Source of the DNA: Synergistales bacterium
GTDB lineage: Bacteria > Synergistota > Synergistia > Synergistales > 79-D21
NCBI GenBank assembly: GCA_015657435.1
Contig: JADLKH010000004.1
Span: forward strand, 429,107 to 441,803
DNA: 12,697 bases
Direction of reading: 5' to 3'
Below are positions 1,133 to 11,299 of this stretch, in pieces. A program made the position numbers and the translations under genes. Numbering within the stretch: the first letter of the stretch is position 1; each line of letters starts with the position of its first letter. A model generated the notes under the pieces. That model worked only from the letters and a program-made list of their open reading frames with translations, did no database searches and was not told where the DNA came from.

Positions 1133-2206
1133 TTATTTCCTCAATTTCGCGGCTTCGACACGAACCTTCGCAAGCTCCGCCTGGACGGTCCGGGTCATGT
1201 TCTGGCCCGGGAAGGCCTTGTCCATCCAGGGCTTGACCAGTTCCTTCCAGATGCTGTCCACGTCCGAGGCCTTGAAAAAGACTTCCTTTTCCGCGGGGGT
1301 AAGCTGCACCATCTGAAGTCCCTTTTGCTTGAGGGTCGCCGTGTCTTCCGCAAGCGCGTTCTTCTGAAGGTTCAGGGCATAGGCCTCCGCGTCCTTGGCG
1401 GCTTTCTGGACGACGGTCTTGAGGTCGGGGGGAAGTTCATCCCACGCCTGGCGGTTGACGGCGATCTGGGCCGCGTCCCACGCCATCCCCATGTCCGTGT
1501 AGTACTTCATGACTTCGTACTGGCGTTCGGCAACGAGAAGGTTGGTCGTGCTCCAGCAGCCGTCGACGACCTTTCTGGAAAGGGCGTTGTACAGTTCGGA
1601 CCACGGCACCGTTTCCATGCTCATTCCGGTTCCCTTGCCCATGTTGCCCAGGGCCCGGACCATGCCCAGAGAAGACGAAACCCGCATCTTCAGGTTTTTC
1701 AGGTCGGCGGGTTTCCGGATCGGCCGGACGTTGTTCCCCAGTCCGTATCCCCCGCCCGAGATCGAGAAGAGCACGTGCATGTTGGTCTCGTTGTAGGCTT
1801 TTTCCATGATCTTGTGCAGGATCCCGCCGGGGGTTCTGAACGCGAGGGAAAACTCGTCGTAGTTGGAAACCGTCCAGGGCATGAAGTTGACCACGCCGCC
1901 GGGGACAAGGTTCACGTAGGGAACGAGCATGGCCATTTCGATCTCGCCCTGCCGGACTCCGGCAAAGGTTTCGTTGTGGCCTCCGAGGAGTCCGTCGGGG
2001 AAAAGCGTGATCTCCATCCGTCCGCCCGAGTTCGTCTTCACCTGGGCGCAGAACCGGTCGAAGGCCTTCTGGAGGACAGGCCTTGGCCAGGGCACTGCGA
2101 AGCGCCACTTGACCTCGGTTTTTGCTTCGGCGGGCCTGGTTTCCCCGCCGAGGAAGATGAAACATGCCGTCAATGCGATCAGGACGAACAATGCTGCTTT
2201 TTTCAC
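1133..2206 (-). CDS. dctP: TRAP transporter substrate-binding protein DctP
   Basis: Periplasmic solute receptor of the TRAP system (DctP/SBP_bac_7 family), 357 residues. It has a Sec signal peptide: KK followed by a hydrophobic core (AALFVLIALTACFIFLGG) and a likely cleavage site after AEA at residue 28. The mature part shows the family pattern: VKWRFAVPWP at the start, LKNLKMRVSSSLGMVRALG, in which this region's arginine normally binds the substrate carboxylate, then VPWSELYNALSRKVVDGCW and the C-terminal long helices. The start is taken as GTG at 2206 because GGGAGG lies 8 nt upstream and the signal peptide begins there; an ATG at 2260 would overlap the upstream regulator gene and spoil the signal peptide. 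It follows the iclR gene by 25 bp. The ligand is likely a carboxylate but is not identifiable by reading. Confidence 0.94.
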   Translation of the reverse strand: MKKAALFVLIALTACFIFLGGETRPAEAKTEVKWRFAVPWPRPVLQKAFDRFCAQVKTNSGGRMEITLFPDGLLGGHNETFAGVRQGEIEMAMLVPYVNLVPGGVVNFMPWTVSNYDEFSLAFRTPGGILHKIMEKAYNETNMHVLFSISGGGYGLGNNVRPIRKPADLKNLKMRVSSSLGMVRALGNMGKGTGMSMETVPWSELYNALSRKVVDGCWSTTNLLVAERQYEVMKYYTDMGMAWDAAQIAVNRQAWDELPPDLKTVVQKAAKDAEAYALNLQKNALAEDTATLKQKGLQMVQLTPAEKEVFFKASDVDSIWKELVKPWMDKAFPGQNMTRTVQAELAKVRVEAAKLRK

Positions 2207-2231
2207 TTCCCGCACCTCCCAGAGTGTGGAT

Positions 2232-3002
2232 TCATTTCCTGAATGCCAGTTTGTAGGCAACCTGCCGTGCCCCCTGCTGCAGGAGGGGAAGGTGCTCCAG
2301 CATGCCTTCCCTCGAGAATCGCGACGTGTTTGCGGAGATGGAGAGGGCCATCCGGACCGGCTTTCCCTCTTCGACGATGGGCACGGACAGGGCGATCAGA
2401 TCTTCCTCGTATTCGTTTTCGGACATGGCGTAGCCTTTTTCCCGGATCGATGCGTATTCCCTGAAGAGTTCCTCCATGGTCCCGATGGTTCTGGATCCTT
2501 TCTTGTCGAGCCCCCGTTTTTCAAGGATTGCGGCGATCGTGTCGCGGTCCTGCCAGGCAGCCAGAAGCTTGGCGGAAGCCCCGCAGTGAATGGGGATTGC
2601 ATCGCCGAAAACGACGCCCCCCTTGAGGGCGTAGCAGGGCTCGTTGGGGTTTTCCTCGATAAGGATGAGGAAGGCCTCGTCCTTCTCCCAGATGGTGAGG
2701 TAGGAGGTGGCTTTGGAGGTTTCGGTCAGCTGGTGCAGGACAGGCTGAACGATGTCCGTGATGCCCTTCTGTTCCCGGTAGAGGTTGCCCAGGCGGAACA
2801 GGGCAGGGCCTAGCGTGTAGTGTTTCGACTGGAGGTCCCGGATCAGGAAGGCGTTTTCCTCCAATACCCGAAGAATTTTCAGCGCACCCGGTTTCGACAT
2901 GCCCAGGCCGGAGGCAATCTCGGTCAGATTCATCGAATACGGGGCTTTCCTGAGCAGGGTGAAAATGAATAGGGCTTTTTCCAGGCTGGTCGAGTTGTCC
3001 AT
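2232..3002 (-). CDS. IclR-family transcriptional regulator
   Basis: 256-residue one-component regulator. Residues 1-65 form the winged helix-turn-helix of the IclR family (SLEKALFIFTLL, then MNLTEIASGLGMSKPGALKILRVLEENAFL). Residues 75-250 are the IclR effector-binding domain, including PIHCGASAKLLAAW, the interdomain GxxxGYAMSENEYEEDLIALSVPI stretch and the final LSISANTSRF. Length is standard. The ATG at 3002 has AGGAG 8 nt upstream. It is the first gene of the TRAP operon and is co-directional with dctP 25 bp downstream. It therefore probably senses the transporter's substrate and controls its own operon through the inverted repeats at 3026-3035 and 3114-3128. Whether it represses or activates cannot be told from sequence. 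Confidence 0.93.
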   Translation of the reverse strand: MDNSTSLEKALFIFTLLRKAPYSMNLTEIASGLGMSKPGALKILRVLEENAFLIRDLQSKHYTLGPALFRLGNLYREQKGITDIVQPVLHQLTETSKATSYLTIWEKDEAFLILIEENPNEPCYALKGGVVFGDAIPIHCGASAKLLAAWQDRDTIAAILEKRGLDKKGSRTIGTMEELFREYASIREKGYAMSENEYEEDLIALSVPIVEEGKPVRMALSISANTSRFSREGMLEHLPLLQQGARQVAYKLAFRK

Positions 3003-3025
3003 ATAATTATCTCCTGGATAACTAG

Positions 3026-3035
3026 ATTAGCTAAT
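3026..3035. promoter_or_regulatory. Palindrome ATTAGCTAAT, candidate operator
   Basis: Perfect 10-bp palindrome just downstream of the predicted start of the iclR operon transcript (about +7 to +16), a place typical for repression. It shares the TTAGC/GCTAA half-site with the inverted repeat at 3114-3128. Assignment to the adjacent IclR protein is an inference. Confidence 0.45.
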
Positions 3036-3048
3036 AAGTAATATAAAA

Positions 3049-3077
3049 AAAATAAGCATTGTGCCTCGCTATGTCAA
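3049..3077 (-). promoter_or_regulatory. Sigma70-type promoter of the iclR-dctPQM operon
   Basis: On the minus strand a perfect -35 box TTGACA (3072-3077) and a -10-like TATTTT (3049-3054, four of six consensus bases) are 17 bp apart, in a strongly AT-rich gap. Transcription would start near 3042 and leave a leader of about 40 nt before the regulator's ATG. Confidence 0.6.
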
Positions 3078-3113
3078 TAGTTCGAGGTTGAAATATCAAT
3101 ACGACTTTTGAAA

Positions 3114-3128
3114 TTAGCGTATAGCTAA
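3114..3128. promoter_or_regulatory. Inverted repeat TTAGC-N5-GCTAA, candidate operator
   Basis: Two 5-bp arms separated by 5 bp, about 70-85 bp upstream of the predicted iclR operon start. The arms repeat the core of the palindrome at 3026-3035, so one dimeric regulator could bind both and loop the DNA between. It also lies just before the remnant hydrolase gene on the plus strand. Confidence 0.4.
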
Positions 3129-3136
3129 CAGGAGGA

Positions 3137-7504: not shown

Positions 7505-8755
7505 CTAAGCCGCTTTTTTGATGCGGACGGCCTTGCCGGTGGAGCGTTCCAGGGCGGCAGGTGCCAGAAGGCTGAATCCGACCCGGATGCCCAGTCCCTC
7601 GTTGAGTTTCTTCGACGCGAGCCGGGCGAGTTTCGCGGAGGCTTCCGCGTCCAGGGTGGCCTCGGATTCGCAATGGACCGTCAGTTCCTTCAGGTAATCC
7701 TTCTCGGTGATTTCCAGCTGGTAGTTCAGGGACAGACCGGGAATCCGGTCAAGCAGAGCTTCCACCTGGGACGGGAACACGTTCACGCCGCGGATGATGA
7801 TCATGTCGTCGCTGCGTCCCTTGACGCGGGCCAGCCGCACGCCGGTCCGGCCGCAGGGGCACGGCTCGGGGATGATCCGGGTGAGGTCGCGGGTGCGGTA
7901 GCGCACCAGGGGCATGGCTTCCTTGGTGATGGTGGTGATGACCAGTTCGCCTTCCTCGCCGTCGGGGAGGACTTCCCCTGTGACCGGGTCGATGATCTCG
8001 CAGAGGAAGTGCCTGCTGTTCAGGTGAAGCCCGTTGCGATGGCCGCATTCCATGGCCACGCCGGGGCCGATGATCTCGCTGAGGCCGTAGGAGTCGATGG
8101 CGATGACCTCCAGTTCCTTTTCGATCCGTTCCCGCATGGCCTCCGACCAGGCTTCGCCGCCGAGGATGACCATGCGCAGGGGGAATTTGTCCCGCAGATT
8201 CCTTTCCCGAATGATCTCCGCCAGATGCAGGGCGTAGGAGGGCGTGCTGGTCAAAACGCTCGTGCCCAGATCCTCCATCAGCAAAAGCTGGCGCTCGGTG
8301 AAGCCGCCGCCTGTGGGAACCACGGCCGCGCCAAGGGCCTCGGCCCCGTAGTGGAATCCCAGGGCGCCGGTGAACAGGCCGTAGCCGAGGATCACCTGGA
8401 AGGTATCGTCCGCGGTCACGCCGGCGGTTTCGAGGCAGTTGGCCATGCACTCGGTCCAGGAGGCGATGTCGTTCTTCGTATACGCGACGACGGTGGGCTT
8501 GCCCGTCGTTCCCGAGGAAGCGTGGTAGCGCACGAGCTCCCGTCTGTCGCAGGCCAGGAGGCCTGTGGGGTAGGCGTCCCGCATGTCCTGCTTCGTGGTG
8601 AAGGGCAGGCGGCGAAGATCTTCGGGCCGTTTGATGTCGTCAGGGGTGACGCCGGCCTTCTCCATCTTGCTCCGGGTCAGAGGAACACGGTCCCATACCC
8701 TTCTTACGGTTCTTTGCAGCGCTTCCATGCTTCCCTGTTCCCATTCCATCTCCAT
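7505..8755 (-). CDS. paaK: Phenylacetate-CoA ligase (PaaK family)
   Basis: AMP-forming ligase that activates phenylacetate or a related aryl acid to its CoA thioester. The 416-residue protein shows the PaaK order of motifs: the P-loop SSGTTGKPT (80-88), SYGLSEIIGPG, the PaaK-type cysteine pair PCPCGRTG, KGRSDDMIIIRGVNVFPSQVE at the domain hinge, and a C-terminal STGKAVRIKK with the expected catalytic lysine. Length matches the shorter anaerobic PaaK homologues. The ATG at 8755 is chosen because AAAGGAG lies 5 nt upstream; further upstream codons fall in a terminator. A promoter, leader peptide and terminator/antiterminator precede it (8771-8989), so expression is probably set by attenuation in response to aromatic amino acids. 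No indolepyruvate oxidoreductase genes, a frequent neighbour of such ligases, are present here. Confidence 0.93.
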   Translation of the reverse strand: MEMEWEQGSMEALQRTVRRVWDRVPLTRSKMEKAGVTPDDIKRPEDLRRLPFTTKQDMRDAYPTGLLACDRRELVRYHASSGTTGKPTVVAYTKNDIASWTECMANCLETAGVTADDTFQVILGYGLFTGALGFHYGAEALGAAVVPTGGGFTERQLLLMEDLGTSVLTSTPSYALHLAEIIRERNLRDKFPLRMVILGGEAWSEAMRERIEKELEVIAIDSYGLSEIIGPGVAMECGHRNGLHLNSRHFLCEIIDPVTGEVLPDGEEGELVITTITKEAMPLVRYRTRDLTRIIPEPCPCGRTGVRLARVKGRSDDMIIIRGVNVFPSQVEALLDRIPGLSLNYQLEITEKDYLKELTVHCESEATLDAEASAKLARLASKKLNEGLGIRVGFSLLAPAALERSTGKAVRIKKAA

Positions 8756-8770
8756 CACGACTCCTTTCGG

Positions 8771-8812
8771 AAAATAAAAAAAGGCCGGGGTCCCCTTTTG
8801 GGGACCCCGGCC
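8771..8812 (-). terminator. Attenuator terminator in the paaK leader
   Basis: Perfect 13-bp stem GGCCGGGGTCCCC / GGGGACCCCGGCC (8800-8812 and 8783-8795) with a 4-nt loop, followed on the minus strand by seven T, an A and four T. It is a textbook intrinsic terminator, but it stands before paaK, ending 9 nt upstream of the paaK ribosome site and downstream of the leader peptide. Its place marks it as a regulatory attenuator rather than the end of a gene. Confidence 0.92.
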
Positions 8813-8858
8813 TCGAATCGGCACGGACGCCTAGGCGTCGGCCCATCGAGGGGGTCCC
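8801..8858 (-). promoter_or_regulatory. Antiterminator of the paaK attenuator
   Basis: On the minus strand GGGACCCCCTCGA (8846-8858), lying inside leader codons 23-27, is complementary to TCGAG-GCC-GGGGTCCC (8801-8816) over 13 bp with a 3-nt bulge. The second segment contains most of the 5' arm of the terminator, so the two structures exclude each other. Between the arms lies the perfect palindrome GACGCCTAGGCGTC (8826-8839), centred on the leader stop codon. Pairing was worked out by hand; alternative folding needs to be computed. Confidence 0.75.
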
Positions 8859-8926
8859 ACGCCGGTAAAATAATAGCGAACGGTGAAGAAGCGGTTCAAT
8901 TTAGGGGTTACGGAATGAAGTCTCAT
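8831..8926 (-). CDS. Aromatic leader peptide controlling paaK (31 aa)
   Basis: A 31-codon frame from ATG at 8926 to TAG at 8831, with GGAGG (8933-8937) 6 nt upstream. It starts about 28 nt after the predicted transcription start. Codons 13-20 read FFTVRYYF: five aromatic residues in eight, with tandem Phe (8885-8890) and Tyr-Tyr-Phe (8867-8875). One Trp lies near the end. This is the design of leader peptides such as pheL and hisL, where a ribosome stalled at the regulatory codons lets the antiterminator form. Here a stall at Phe or Tyr codons would leave the antiterminator arm in codons 23-27 largely free, while a ribosome reaching the stop codon would cover it and allow termination. Basic N-terminus, no other feature. 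It is too short to be picked up by usual gene finding. Confidence 0.8.
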   Translation of the reverse strand: MRLHSVTPKLNRFFTVRYYFTGVGPPRWADA

Positions 8927-8955
8927 TTTCTTCCTCCGCGAACTGCAGATATTGT

Positions 8956-8971
8956 GGTGCTTTATAGCACC
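8956..8971. promoter_or_regulatory. Inverted repeat over the paaK -10 box, candidate operator
   Basis: GGTGCT-N4-AGCACC, a perfect 6-bp inverted repeat that embraces the whole -10 hexamer of the paaK promoter. A repressor bound here would block RNA polymerase, adding an initiation control to the attenuator. No candidate regulator is adjacent. Confidence 0.5.
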
Positions 8972-8989
8972 GATTAAATGGGATGTCAA
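8961..8989 (-). promoter_or_regulatory. Sigma70 promoter of the leader-paaK unit
   Basis: Minus-strand TTGACA (8984-8989, perfect -35) and TATAAA (8961-8966, five of six -10 bases) with an ideal 17-bp spacer. Start predicted near 8953-8955, which places the leader peptide ATG about 28 nt downstream. Confidence 0.85.
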
Positions 8990-9793: not shown

Positions 9794-11299
9794 ATGGAAA
9801 AAACGCAGCGGCTCGACATGGGCATCGAGAAACGGAACGGCTCTTTCCCGGAGGAAAGGTGCCTGTGGTGGAACGGCTCGTGGTGGAGCCGGAAAACGTT
9901 CTCCGAAAAGGTGGAGGCGGCCGCGCGAAGCCTTGAGTCCGGAGGCTTCCGCGCAGGCGAGAGGGTGGCCTGTTTCCTGCCGAACTGTCCCACGGTGCTG
10001 GTGCTTTCGGTTGCCGCCTGGAAGCTGGGTGGAACCGTCATCCCCCTGAACATGAAGGCGGGGACGCCGTCGATCCTCAAGATCCTGCGCCATGTGGAAC
10101 CGGCGGGTGTTTTCCTTCACGAGAGCATGCAACCCCTGTTGGAGATCCTCGAGACGGAGGGCATCCCCGCGGCGGTCGTCGGCCCCGAAGGAGAGCTCCC
10201 CCCTCTGTCCATGCGCCCCGTGACCCGCGAGCCCGAAGACCTGGCCGTCATCTTCGCCACATCGGGCACCACGGGCGACCCGAAGGCGGTTCCGCTGACG
10301 CACTCCAACCTGCTGGACAACGCGACGAACGTTCACGAGAACATCGAGGGGTTCGAGACGGGCCGGGTTTTGATGAACGTCCTGCCGAACTTTCACGCGT
10401 TCGGTTACACGATCTGCGGCCTTCTTTCCCTGCTTTTCGGGCTGCCGCAGGTTATTTTGCCTTCCTTCATTCCCCTGAAGTCGTTCTTCGAAGCCCTCAG
10501 GGCCACCCGTACCGAGATTCTCATCGCCGTGCCCACCATGCTGCCCTTCATCCTGGGTTCGGTGGCCAAGGGCGAGGAATGCCCCGATTCGCTGAAATAC
10601 ATCCTCACGGGAGGCGGACGCCTCGACCCGACCCTCGACACGCGTGTGCGGGACACTCTCGGCGTGGTGGTCTTCGAGGGCTACGGCCTGACGGAGACGT
10701 CGCCGGACGTGGCGGCGAACCGAAGCTTTGCCTCGAAGAAACTGGGGACGGTGGGCCCGGCCCTGCCGAGTTTCGAGATCCAGGTGCGCGACGATTCGGG
10801 CAATGTCCTTGGTCCGAACAGGGAAGGCCTGCTCTGGGTCAGGGGTCCGTCGGTTTTCTCGGGTTACTTCAGGTCTCCGGAGATGACGGACGAACGGATC
10901 GTTTCGGGATGGTTCAACACGGACGATATCGTCCGGGTCGACGAAGAAGGCTATATCGAGATCCTGGACCGGGCCAGCGACCTCATCATCGTGGGCGGTT
11001 TCAACGTCTACCCGCAGGAGGTCGAGACGATCCTGAACCAGGTGCCGGGAGTGGTCATGTCCGCGGTCATCGGAATCCCCAACGCGGTTTCGGGAGAGGT
11101 CCCGAAGGCTTTCGTCATCCTGAAGGAGGGATCCGACGTCACCGCCCAGTCCATCGTCGCGTACTGCAAGGAGCACATGGCCCACTACAAGGTTCCCCGC
11201 AAGGTGGAGTTCGTTTCCGAACTGCCCCTGTCGAGCGTGGGAAAGGTCCTGCGGCGGGAGCTGCGGAGGCTCGAGAAAAACTCGGGCAAGGCAAGCTAG
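9794..11299 (+). CDS. AMP-dependent acyl-CoA synthetase (fatty-acid type)
   Basis: Adenylate-forming ligase (ANL superfamily), 501 residues, that activates a carboxylic acid to an acyl-AMP and then a thioester. All core motifs are present: P-loop ATSGTTGDPKAVPLTH (about 149-164), the HAFGYT segment, GYGLTETSP (about 297-305), WFNTDDI, the hinge DRASDLIIVGGFNVYPQEVE, and the C-terminal SSVGKVLRREL with the catalytic lysine. Overall it resembles medium/long-chain acyl-CoA synthetases and the synthetase half of Aas (2-acyl-glycerophosphoethanolamine acyltransferase). The substrate could be a fatty acid on CoA or on acyl carrier protein. ATG at 9794 has GAGGGGAG 9 nt upstream. The stop codon at 11299 touches the ribosome site of the TPR gene, so the genes form an operon. 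It is distinct from the PaaK-type ligase nearby. Confidence 0.9.
   Translation: MEKTQRLDMGIEKRNGSFPEERCLWWNGSWWSRKTFSEKVEAAARSLESGGFRAGERVACFLPNCPTVLVLSVAAWKLGGTVIPLNMKAGTPSILKILRHVEPAGVFLHESMQPLLEILETEGIPAAVVGPEGELPPLSMRPVTREPEDLAVIFATSGTTGDPKAVPLTHSNLLDNATNVHENIEGFETGRVLMNVLPNFHAFGYTICGLLSLLFGLPQVILPSFIPLKSFFEALRATRTEILIAVPTMLPFILGSVAKGEECPDSLKYILTGGGRLDPTLDTRVRDTLGVVVFEGYGLTETSPDVAANRSFASKKLGTVGPALPSFEIQVRDDSGNVLGPNREGLLWVRGPSVFSGYFRSPEMTDERIVSGWFNTDDIVRVDEEGYIEILDRASDLIIVGGFNVYPQEVETILNQVPGVVMSAVIGIPNAVSGEVPKAFVILKEGSDVTAQSIVAYCKEHMAHYKVPRKVEFVSELPLSSVGKVLRRELRRLEKNSGKAS

Follow-up and report, generated by a model that had tools for sequence, protein, structure and literature searches.

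The window, by which we mean the whole stretch of 12,697 nucleotides of Synergistales DNA that was analysed, carries on its minus strand a gene for a PaaK-like aryl-CoA ligase. Between positions 8989 and 8755 of that strand a promoter, a ribosome-binding site, a 31-codon frame, a terminator with a U-tract and the ribosome-binding site of the ligase follow one another in this order. A first-pass annotation had read this arrangement as a transcription attenuator with a Phe/Tyr leader peptide, and direct reading of the sequence found every part that it named in its place. The features, in the direction of transcription, are:

8961..8989, minus strand: promoter, TTGACA (8989-8984), 17-base spacer, TATAAA (8966-8961); read directly
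8932..8937, minus strand: leader-peptide ribosome-binding site, GGAGGA; read directly
8831..8926, minus strand: leader peptide ORF, ATG at 8926, 31 codons (MRLHSVTPKLNRFFTVRYYFTGVGPPRWADA), stop TAG at 8833-8831
8867..8890, minus strand: regulatory codons Phe-Phe-Thr-Val-Arg-Tyr-Tyr-Phe (codons 13-20); aromatic run kept, N-terminal residues variable
8846..8860, minus strand: arm A, 5' arm of the putative antiterminator, GTGGGACCCCCTCGA (codons 23-27); pairs with arm C (cognate-arm test)
8834..8844, minus strand: arm B, GGGCCGACGCC; competing hairpin A:B with 8863-8852 (fold and covariation)
8800..8816, minus strand: arm C, 3' arm of the putative antiterminator, overlapping the 5' arm of the terminator (read directly; arm swap test)
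8781..8814, minus strand: intrinsic terminator hairpin with a perfect 13-bp core (fold and terminator scan)
8771..8782, minus strand: U-tract (read directly; terminator scan)
8761..8767, minus strand: paaK ribosome-binding site, AAAGGAG; read directly
7505..8758, minus strand: paaK-like aryl-CoA ligase, Tyr/Phe leader class, start GTG 8758 or ATG 8755

The promoter, already called a consensus one, gave 11 of 12 consensus matches in a promoter-pattern scan of the leaders; a separate promoter scan missed it because that scan demands a T at position 6. The frame with its good ribosome site and FFTVRYYF run, the arm in codons 23-27 that can pair with the 5' side of the terminator, and the perfect 13-bp terminator with its U-tract ahead of the paaK ribosome site are all as they had been described. 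The paaK terminator ranks top of 19 terminator-like sites in the window, where shuffled sequences gave 14.9 ± 3.7 sites of any quality. Folding of the leader, which had been proposed as a check, gave the RNA 8750-8960 a stability beyond that of shuffled sequence (z -3.26), which equalled it in 2 of 200 cases. Rfam gave no match above threshold in the window and none to the T-box (RF00230), and the 8 sub-threshold matches at the leader site were weak and unrelated, none of them an amino-acid leader.

The ligase contains PF00501 and PF14535 above cut-off, and scores 477.8 bits against TIGR02155, under the equivalog cut-off of 646.3. Solved PaaK enzymes match it with E-values down to 3.4e-112, and we therefore call it PaaK-like. 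The closest named ligase records are from Synergistaceae MAGs, at 92% and 90% identity. Elsewhere in the window a DctP-type TRAP binding protein and an IclR-type regulator are encoded at 1133-3002 (minus strand), and an acyl-CoA ligase at 9794-11299 (plus strand).

Conservation and pairing of the leader in Synergistota

We surveyed 61 Synergistota genomes, that of the window (G000) included, and read the regions upstream of those ligase genes that reached 40% identity across more than 250 residues. Fifty-two genes qualified: 36 have a leader upstream, one further gene lies at a contig edge and 15 have none. An automatic rule called 29 of the leaders, and 7 were recognised by eye (L119, L120, L136 and two each in L137 and L138); two more frames that the rule picked out, at L249 and L251, were rejected as leaders. 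At an identity of at least 54%, a leader precedes all 27 testable paaK genes in the 61 genomes (28 genes, one at a contig edge). A record from Thermovirga (L037) has one as well. Among the leaders the N-terminal residues vary freely, and the aromatic run, the arms and the terminator are retained across relatives, which is the conservation on which the first-pass annotation had made its reading depend. Of the 32 leaders scanned, 27 have a promoter-like pair ahead of them, with 7 to 11 of 12 positions matching; none was found before L115, L116, L134 (only 51 bases upstream), L135 and L144.

Twelve of the 15 leaderless paaK genes sit just behind iorA on the same strand; the others are L142, L145 and L149. 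Twenty iorA loci were scanned for aromatic frames, and those listed for six loci are unlike the module, a check valid for 17 or 18 of the 20 given the weak points at L163 and L174, where another long ORF was taken, and at L155, with 279 bases upstream only.

The terminators of different subgroups do not align, and A:C pairing was therefore tested by swapping arms. Among 17 representatives, hand-picked from 30 leaders by dropping 13 near copies, cognate A:C pairing averaged -25.3 kcal/mol against -19.6 ± 0.9 for swapped arms, and 0 of 20,000 permutations were as good. For all 30 leaders the values were -25.0 and -20.0 ± 0.6, the best of 10,000 permutations reaching -22.4. Two Trp leaders were left out of these statistics, having no A:C pair under the arm definition used. 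The effect is an average one: because many arms are alike, the cognate terminator arm ranked first in 5 of the 17 representatives and among the top three in 12. Compared singly with shuffled C arms, four of the 17 sequences were weak (the window z -1.4, L122 -1.2, L118 -0.6, L135 +0.2). The window's own A:C pairing, matched by 24 of 300 terminator-arm shuffles, is only modestly above chance because the arms are G+C rich. It is the comparison across species, rather than the window alone, that makes the predicted antiterminator convincing.

The competing A:B hairpin has 96.9% standard pairs over 24 sequences and was destroyed by sliding the partner, a test in which the structure, derived from the same alignment, favours the real over the slid versions. 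Seventeen cells have changed on both sides, against a shuffled mean of 4.0, with 0 of 500 shuffles as high; further pair types, one of five covariation measures, were not above shuffles (79 of 500). RNAalifold on a MAFFT alignment recovered the A:B hairpin only. The mutually exclusive stems with compensating changes that had been named as a check on relatives are thus present. If the leader were a constitutive terminator behind an aromatic frame that arose by chance, the z of -1.4 for the window's A:C pair would cause no surprise, but conservation and covariation across genera contradict this explanation, which we regard as hardly credible.

A proposed switch and its relation to known attenuators

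Several features expected of a ribosome-mediated attenuator are found here: a short translatable frame with a Shine-Dalgarno sequence and clustered codons for the sensed amino acid; an intrinsic terminator ahead of the structural gene, also in the homologous leaders; and a putative antiterminator exclusive with the terminator, with compensating changes, weak in 4 of 17 single sequences. In the proposed switch, plentiful charged tRNA-Phe and tRNA-Tyr would let the ribosome pass the aromatic codons and run over arm A. With arm A covered, arm C would pair with its downstream partner, the terminator would form and transcription would end before paaK. Under a shortage of charged tRNA the ribosome would stall at the aromatic codons, its leading edge covering the foot of the A:B hairpin and leaving arm A free; arm A could then pair with arm C, no terminator would form, and paaK would be expressed.

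We modelled the switch on 30 leaders by folding RNAs that end with arm C and keeping the bases under the ribosome footprint unpaired. With a footprint of -15/+15, a ribosome on the last aromatic codon left a mean of 14.1 A:C pairs, and one standing five codons past the aromatic run left 0.2. A ribosome at the stop codon left 8.4, and the stalled position had more pairs than the stop position in 30 of 30 leaders. The contrast was smaller with other footprints; -15/+18 gave 10.7 against 8.5 pairs, stalled above stop in 25 of 30. Stalling would thus favour read-through, and passage over arm A would forbid the antiterminator. In most leaders A:C likewise forms without a ribosome, and with about 8 pairs remaining at the stop codon the off state would have to rest on kinetics or timing.

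The pheL/pheA, trpL and hisL leaders are ribosome-mediated attenuators of enteric bacteria. With them the paaK leader has in common a promoter, a short frame with a run of sensed codons, an exclusive antiterminator and terminator, and a logic of the biosynthetic type. One difference is the place of arm A, which sits within the frame, 3-7 codons behind the run, and has the terminator arm as its direct partner, with arm B competing for A; another is that the controlled gene encodes an aryl-CoA ligase. The proposed pheL/hisL-type layout accordingly stands as regards ribosome-mediated attenuation, which the comparison of sequences supports, but not as regards the classical arm order 1:2, 2:3, 3:4, which is not kept in the Phe/Tyr class, where arm A pairs with both B and C. 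The mechanism would be of a known kind, with a different arm arrangement, on a gene where it changes the biology to be expected.

We put at about 0.8 the probability that the leader is a ribosome-mediated transcription attenuator sensing charged tRNA-Phe and tRNA-Tyr, its likely purpose being to make aromatic amino acids from arylacetates. The attenuator interpretation of the first-pass annotation is supported to this extent by the sequence data. The comparison shows the parts, their conservation and covariation, and the match between sensed residue and paralogue, while the direction of regulation and charging as its signal are inferred.

We found no attenuator or T-box described for paaK in the open full-text literature that was searched. 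Stav et al. 2019 (PMC6429828) surveyed intergenic regions of Thermovirga lienii, a member of Synergistota, and the legend of their Fig. 6b names a pair of uORF candidates, with Phe and Tyr codons, that are tied to genes of shikimate metabolism; the words 'paaK' and 'phenylacetate' are absent from the main text. Brewer et al. 2021 (PMC8632094) describe uORFC-13-1, with Phe or Tyr codons, linked to aroF in Acholeplasma. These uORFs resemble the paaK leader in their Phe or Tyr codons and their link to aromatic metabolism, but they are described as tied to shikimate genes and aroF. As the Thermovirga record has the leader, it may have been partly detected earlier in PMC6429828.

The same module before other genes, and T-boxes before paaK

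The paaK leader is one member of a Synergistota module that serves several amino acids, a finding that goes beyond the first reading. A covariance model built from 24 leaders gave 60 matches in 33 of the 61 genomes at E 0.01, and with stricter filters, at E 0.001, matches in 52 of 185 genomes of the phylum. The paaK leaders account for 27 of the 60; we inspected 31 of the other 33, together with two weak matches in the window's own genome, L242 (E 0.075) and L243 (E 0.091).

Branched-chain runs precede several genes. At L243 (G000:C1:98579-104709; leader at about 3001-3131, plus strand; the weak match just named) a V/L/I run, LVLVLALIIGHGFPPGAAGA, is followed by ilvN and ilvC, and V/L/I runs also stand before look-alike genes at L221 and L237. 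Runs of Ile codons precede threonine-dehydratase-like genes at L215, L216, L218, L233 and L234, one of which was tested with HMMs and lies above the Pfam and below the NCBIfam cut-off, and at L224 the gene of a 2-oxoacid:ferredoxin oxidoreductase gamma subunit. A second site at L218 precedes an AzlC-like gene (below cut-off), with no qualifying frame listed there. For the V/L/I leaders L240 (G000:C2:490219-490342), L217, L226 and L235, found in four genomes of the genus to which the window belongs, no gene could be assigned immediately downstream.

Aromatic runs are found before further genes. A Phe run at L220 leads into a gene for a solute-binding-protein-like product, possibly PheC, followed by DAHP synthase, with a look-alike at L225, and mixed aromatic runs precede a sodium:solute symporter at L213 (by HMM) and at L230, L231 and L241 (by resemblance). 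Aromatic-rich leaders also stand before genes at L242, L214, L223, L239, L232 and L236, the last two mixed with Ile; no qualifying leader frame is listed at L222, L238 and L244. The genes at these nine sites are candidates for transporters of aromatic amino acids or aryl acids; those at L214, L222, L232, L239 and L242 gave no Pfam or NCBIfam family above cut-off. At L229/L255 (G041:C76:1304-1427) the paaK-type leader is complete, but no paaK can be recognised behind it (best tblastn E 0.05), and the gene seems to have been lost or to have decayed. The leader at L219 (G011:C14:72499-72629) has the run YYFYYWF; the frame that follows ends at 55 codons, and no plus-strand ORF of 120 codons lies within 3 kb downstream. 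L227 and L228 (E 0.007-0.008) have no leader frame and were taken as false matches.

Wherever the downstream genes could be named, the leader runs fit them. Both ilvN-ilvC and DAHP synthase act in biosynthesis, and this hints at the sign of control that the module would exert. The variation of the run with the downstream gene (F, Y, W, I, V/L/I) also bears on whether the leader could be an arrest peptide of the TnaC type, sensing a small molecule such as an arylacetate and not tRNA charging. Many leaders do carry a VGPP-like tail behind the aromatic run, as such a peptide might, but the tail is lost or rewritten in L129, L118, L128 and L124, and with this variation of the run an arrest peptide becomes quite improbable.

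Outside the phylum, 31 clostridial-type paaK loci, of 80 in a homologue listing, were scanned with Rfam. A T-box stands directly before paaK in 10 of the 31 (11 T-boxes, L039 having two tandem ligases, each with its own), and at L067 a Tyr (UAC) T-box is followed by a sodium:solute symporter and then paaK; the remaining 20 have no T-box in the Rfam scan. The specifier of the 11, read by eye, is Phe (UUC) in 10 and Tyr (UAC) in one, the first copy at L039. None of the 20 Synergistota paaK loci scanned has a T-box. The T-box leaders (RF00230) are like the Synergistota leader in being placed before PaaK relatives and in their predicted sensing of the charging of Phe or Tyr tRNA, but they bind the tRNA directly and have no leader peptide, whereas the Synergistota leader uses a peptide frame. 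Two unrelated RNA devices, attenuator and T-box, would then act on related genes in response to the same signal, and an attenuator module is described in a phylum where Rfam has nothing at this site.

Sensed residue, ligase paralogues and direction of the pathway

The window's genome has a second ligase copy with 61% identity and its own leader, MTNPTNSKMSVRFFFTGVGPPRRADA. Thirteen genomes have at least two leader-bearing copies (G000, G001, G009, G013, G018, G019, G022, G026, G033, G043, G044, G049 and G054), and each of them has one Tyr-containing and one Phe-dominated run, the class being judged from the run adjoining arm A; some runs are short (FSF, YSY), and the Phe-type run GYFF of G018 and G026 includes one Tyr. 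In G009, G018, G026 and G033 there is a further ligase copy with a WWW run. This third PaaK paralogue (L150, L151, L247, L250) is 42-43% identical, and when L150 is folded its Trp codons are paired with the ACCGCC behind them. Pairing of Trp codons in a leader stem is a feature of classical trp leaders.

A FastTree tree of 60 ligases was read without support values, the leader labels having been set before the tree and the alignment columns were seen; L154 (contig edge) and L245-L247 (near copies of L128, L118 and L151) were left out. A single large clade holds the Tyr class, which has a second origin in L137/L138; the three Trp-type genes cluster, and so do the two Tyr T-box genes. Phe-class genes do not make up a single clade, with L115/L116 adjoining that of the Tyr class and L136, L137, L138 and L144 in other parts of the tree.

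Two columns were chosen post hoc from a scan of the whole alignment. Column 222, the residue directly before YGLSE, holds Ser in 16 of 16 Tyr-leader and Asn in 2 of 2 Tyr T-box ligases, 18 Tyr-type genes that because of shared descent amount to about three independent changes. All 24 Phe-type ligases, 14 with leaders and 10 with T-boxes, have Ile or Val there, and all three Trp-type and all 15 leaderless ligases have Ile. At column 123 the 24 Phe-type genes have Tyr or Phe and the 16 Tyr-leader genes Leu or Thr, but both Tyr T-box genes have Phe. Allowing for a five-residue tag, we take columns 123 and 222 to correspond to Tyr136 and Ile236 of PaaK1, an enzyme of solved structure; column 222 presumably also corresponds to a specificity-code position of peptide-synthetase adenylation domains. 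The pocket residues searched for are not named in the available parts of PMC4498308, PMC8388817 and PMC9493321. The residue that the leader would sense differs between paralogues in step with column 222, a putative pocket residue, and we treat the pocket reading as a lead.

Annotation normally places paaK at the first step in the breakdown of phenylacetate. For the leader-bearing genes the purpose is likely to be biosynthesis or salvage instead, a reading that was not part of the first-pass annotation and that draws on the direction in which control would act, the position of ligase genes next to iorA and the match between paralogues and their leaders. In such a salvage the ligase would make the aryl-CoA, indolepyruvate:ferredoxin oxidoreductase (IOR) would carboxylate it reductively to the arylpyruvate, and transamination would give the amino acid. 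A route from arylacetates to aromatic amino acids by IOR is known from archaea and rumen bacteria. The path proposed here resembles it in leading from an aryl acid through a CoA ligase and reductive carboxylation to an amino acid, and differs in its evidence, which consists of regulation, gene neighbours and a putative pocket residue. The IOR alpha subunit is above cut-off in 55 of the 61 Synergistota genomes versus 2 of 14 control genomes.

Synergistota are amino acid fermenters, and this lifestyle would suit a PaaK that is catabolic even behind a real attenuator, low Phe/Tyr supply then being merely a proxy for growth state. The catabolic PaaK is also the best NCBIfam match of the ligase, though below cut-off. 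We nevertheless find a degradative role unlikely: expression induced by shortage has the wrong sign for degradation, the same module precedes ilvN-ilvC and a DAHP synthase operon, and the T-boxes on clostridial paaK belong to a family known to read uncharged tRNA. The data suggest that the anaerobic hosts use PaaK to make aromatic amino acids, not to destroy them. The substrates and the direction of flux are likewise inferred.

We hold it fairly probable that the Synergistota module has been retuned by its codons to Phe, Tyr, Ile and Val/Leu/Ile, with a Trp-run leader of different topology besides, that the codons report the substrate of each ligase paralogue (phenylacetate, 4-hydroxyphenylacetate or indoleacetate), and that Clostridia achieve the same wiring through T-boxes. 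If so, salvage of arylacetates to amino acids would be a regulated and widespread biosynthesis route of anaerobes, hidden under the name of a catabolic gene. If Phe/Tyr shortage induces paaK, annotating it as a degradation gene may give the wrong direction in strict anaerobes, and the substrate of each paralogue could be predicted from the codons of its leader.

Chorismate synthase was found in 33 and prephenate dehydratase in 33 of the 61 genomes. The window's genome has both, and salvage would therefore not be obligatory there. A link between the leader and loss of the shikimate pathway was considered and rejected: chorismate synthase is present in 12 and missing from 7 of the 19 genomes in which paaK bears a leader, one of the 7 being only 56% complete, and the leader is therefore no simple marker of auxotrophs.
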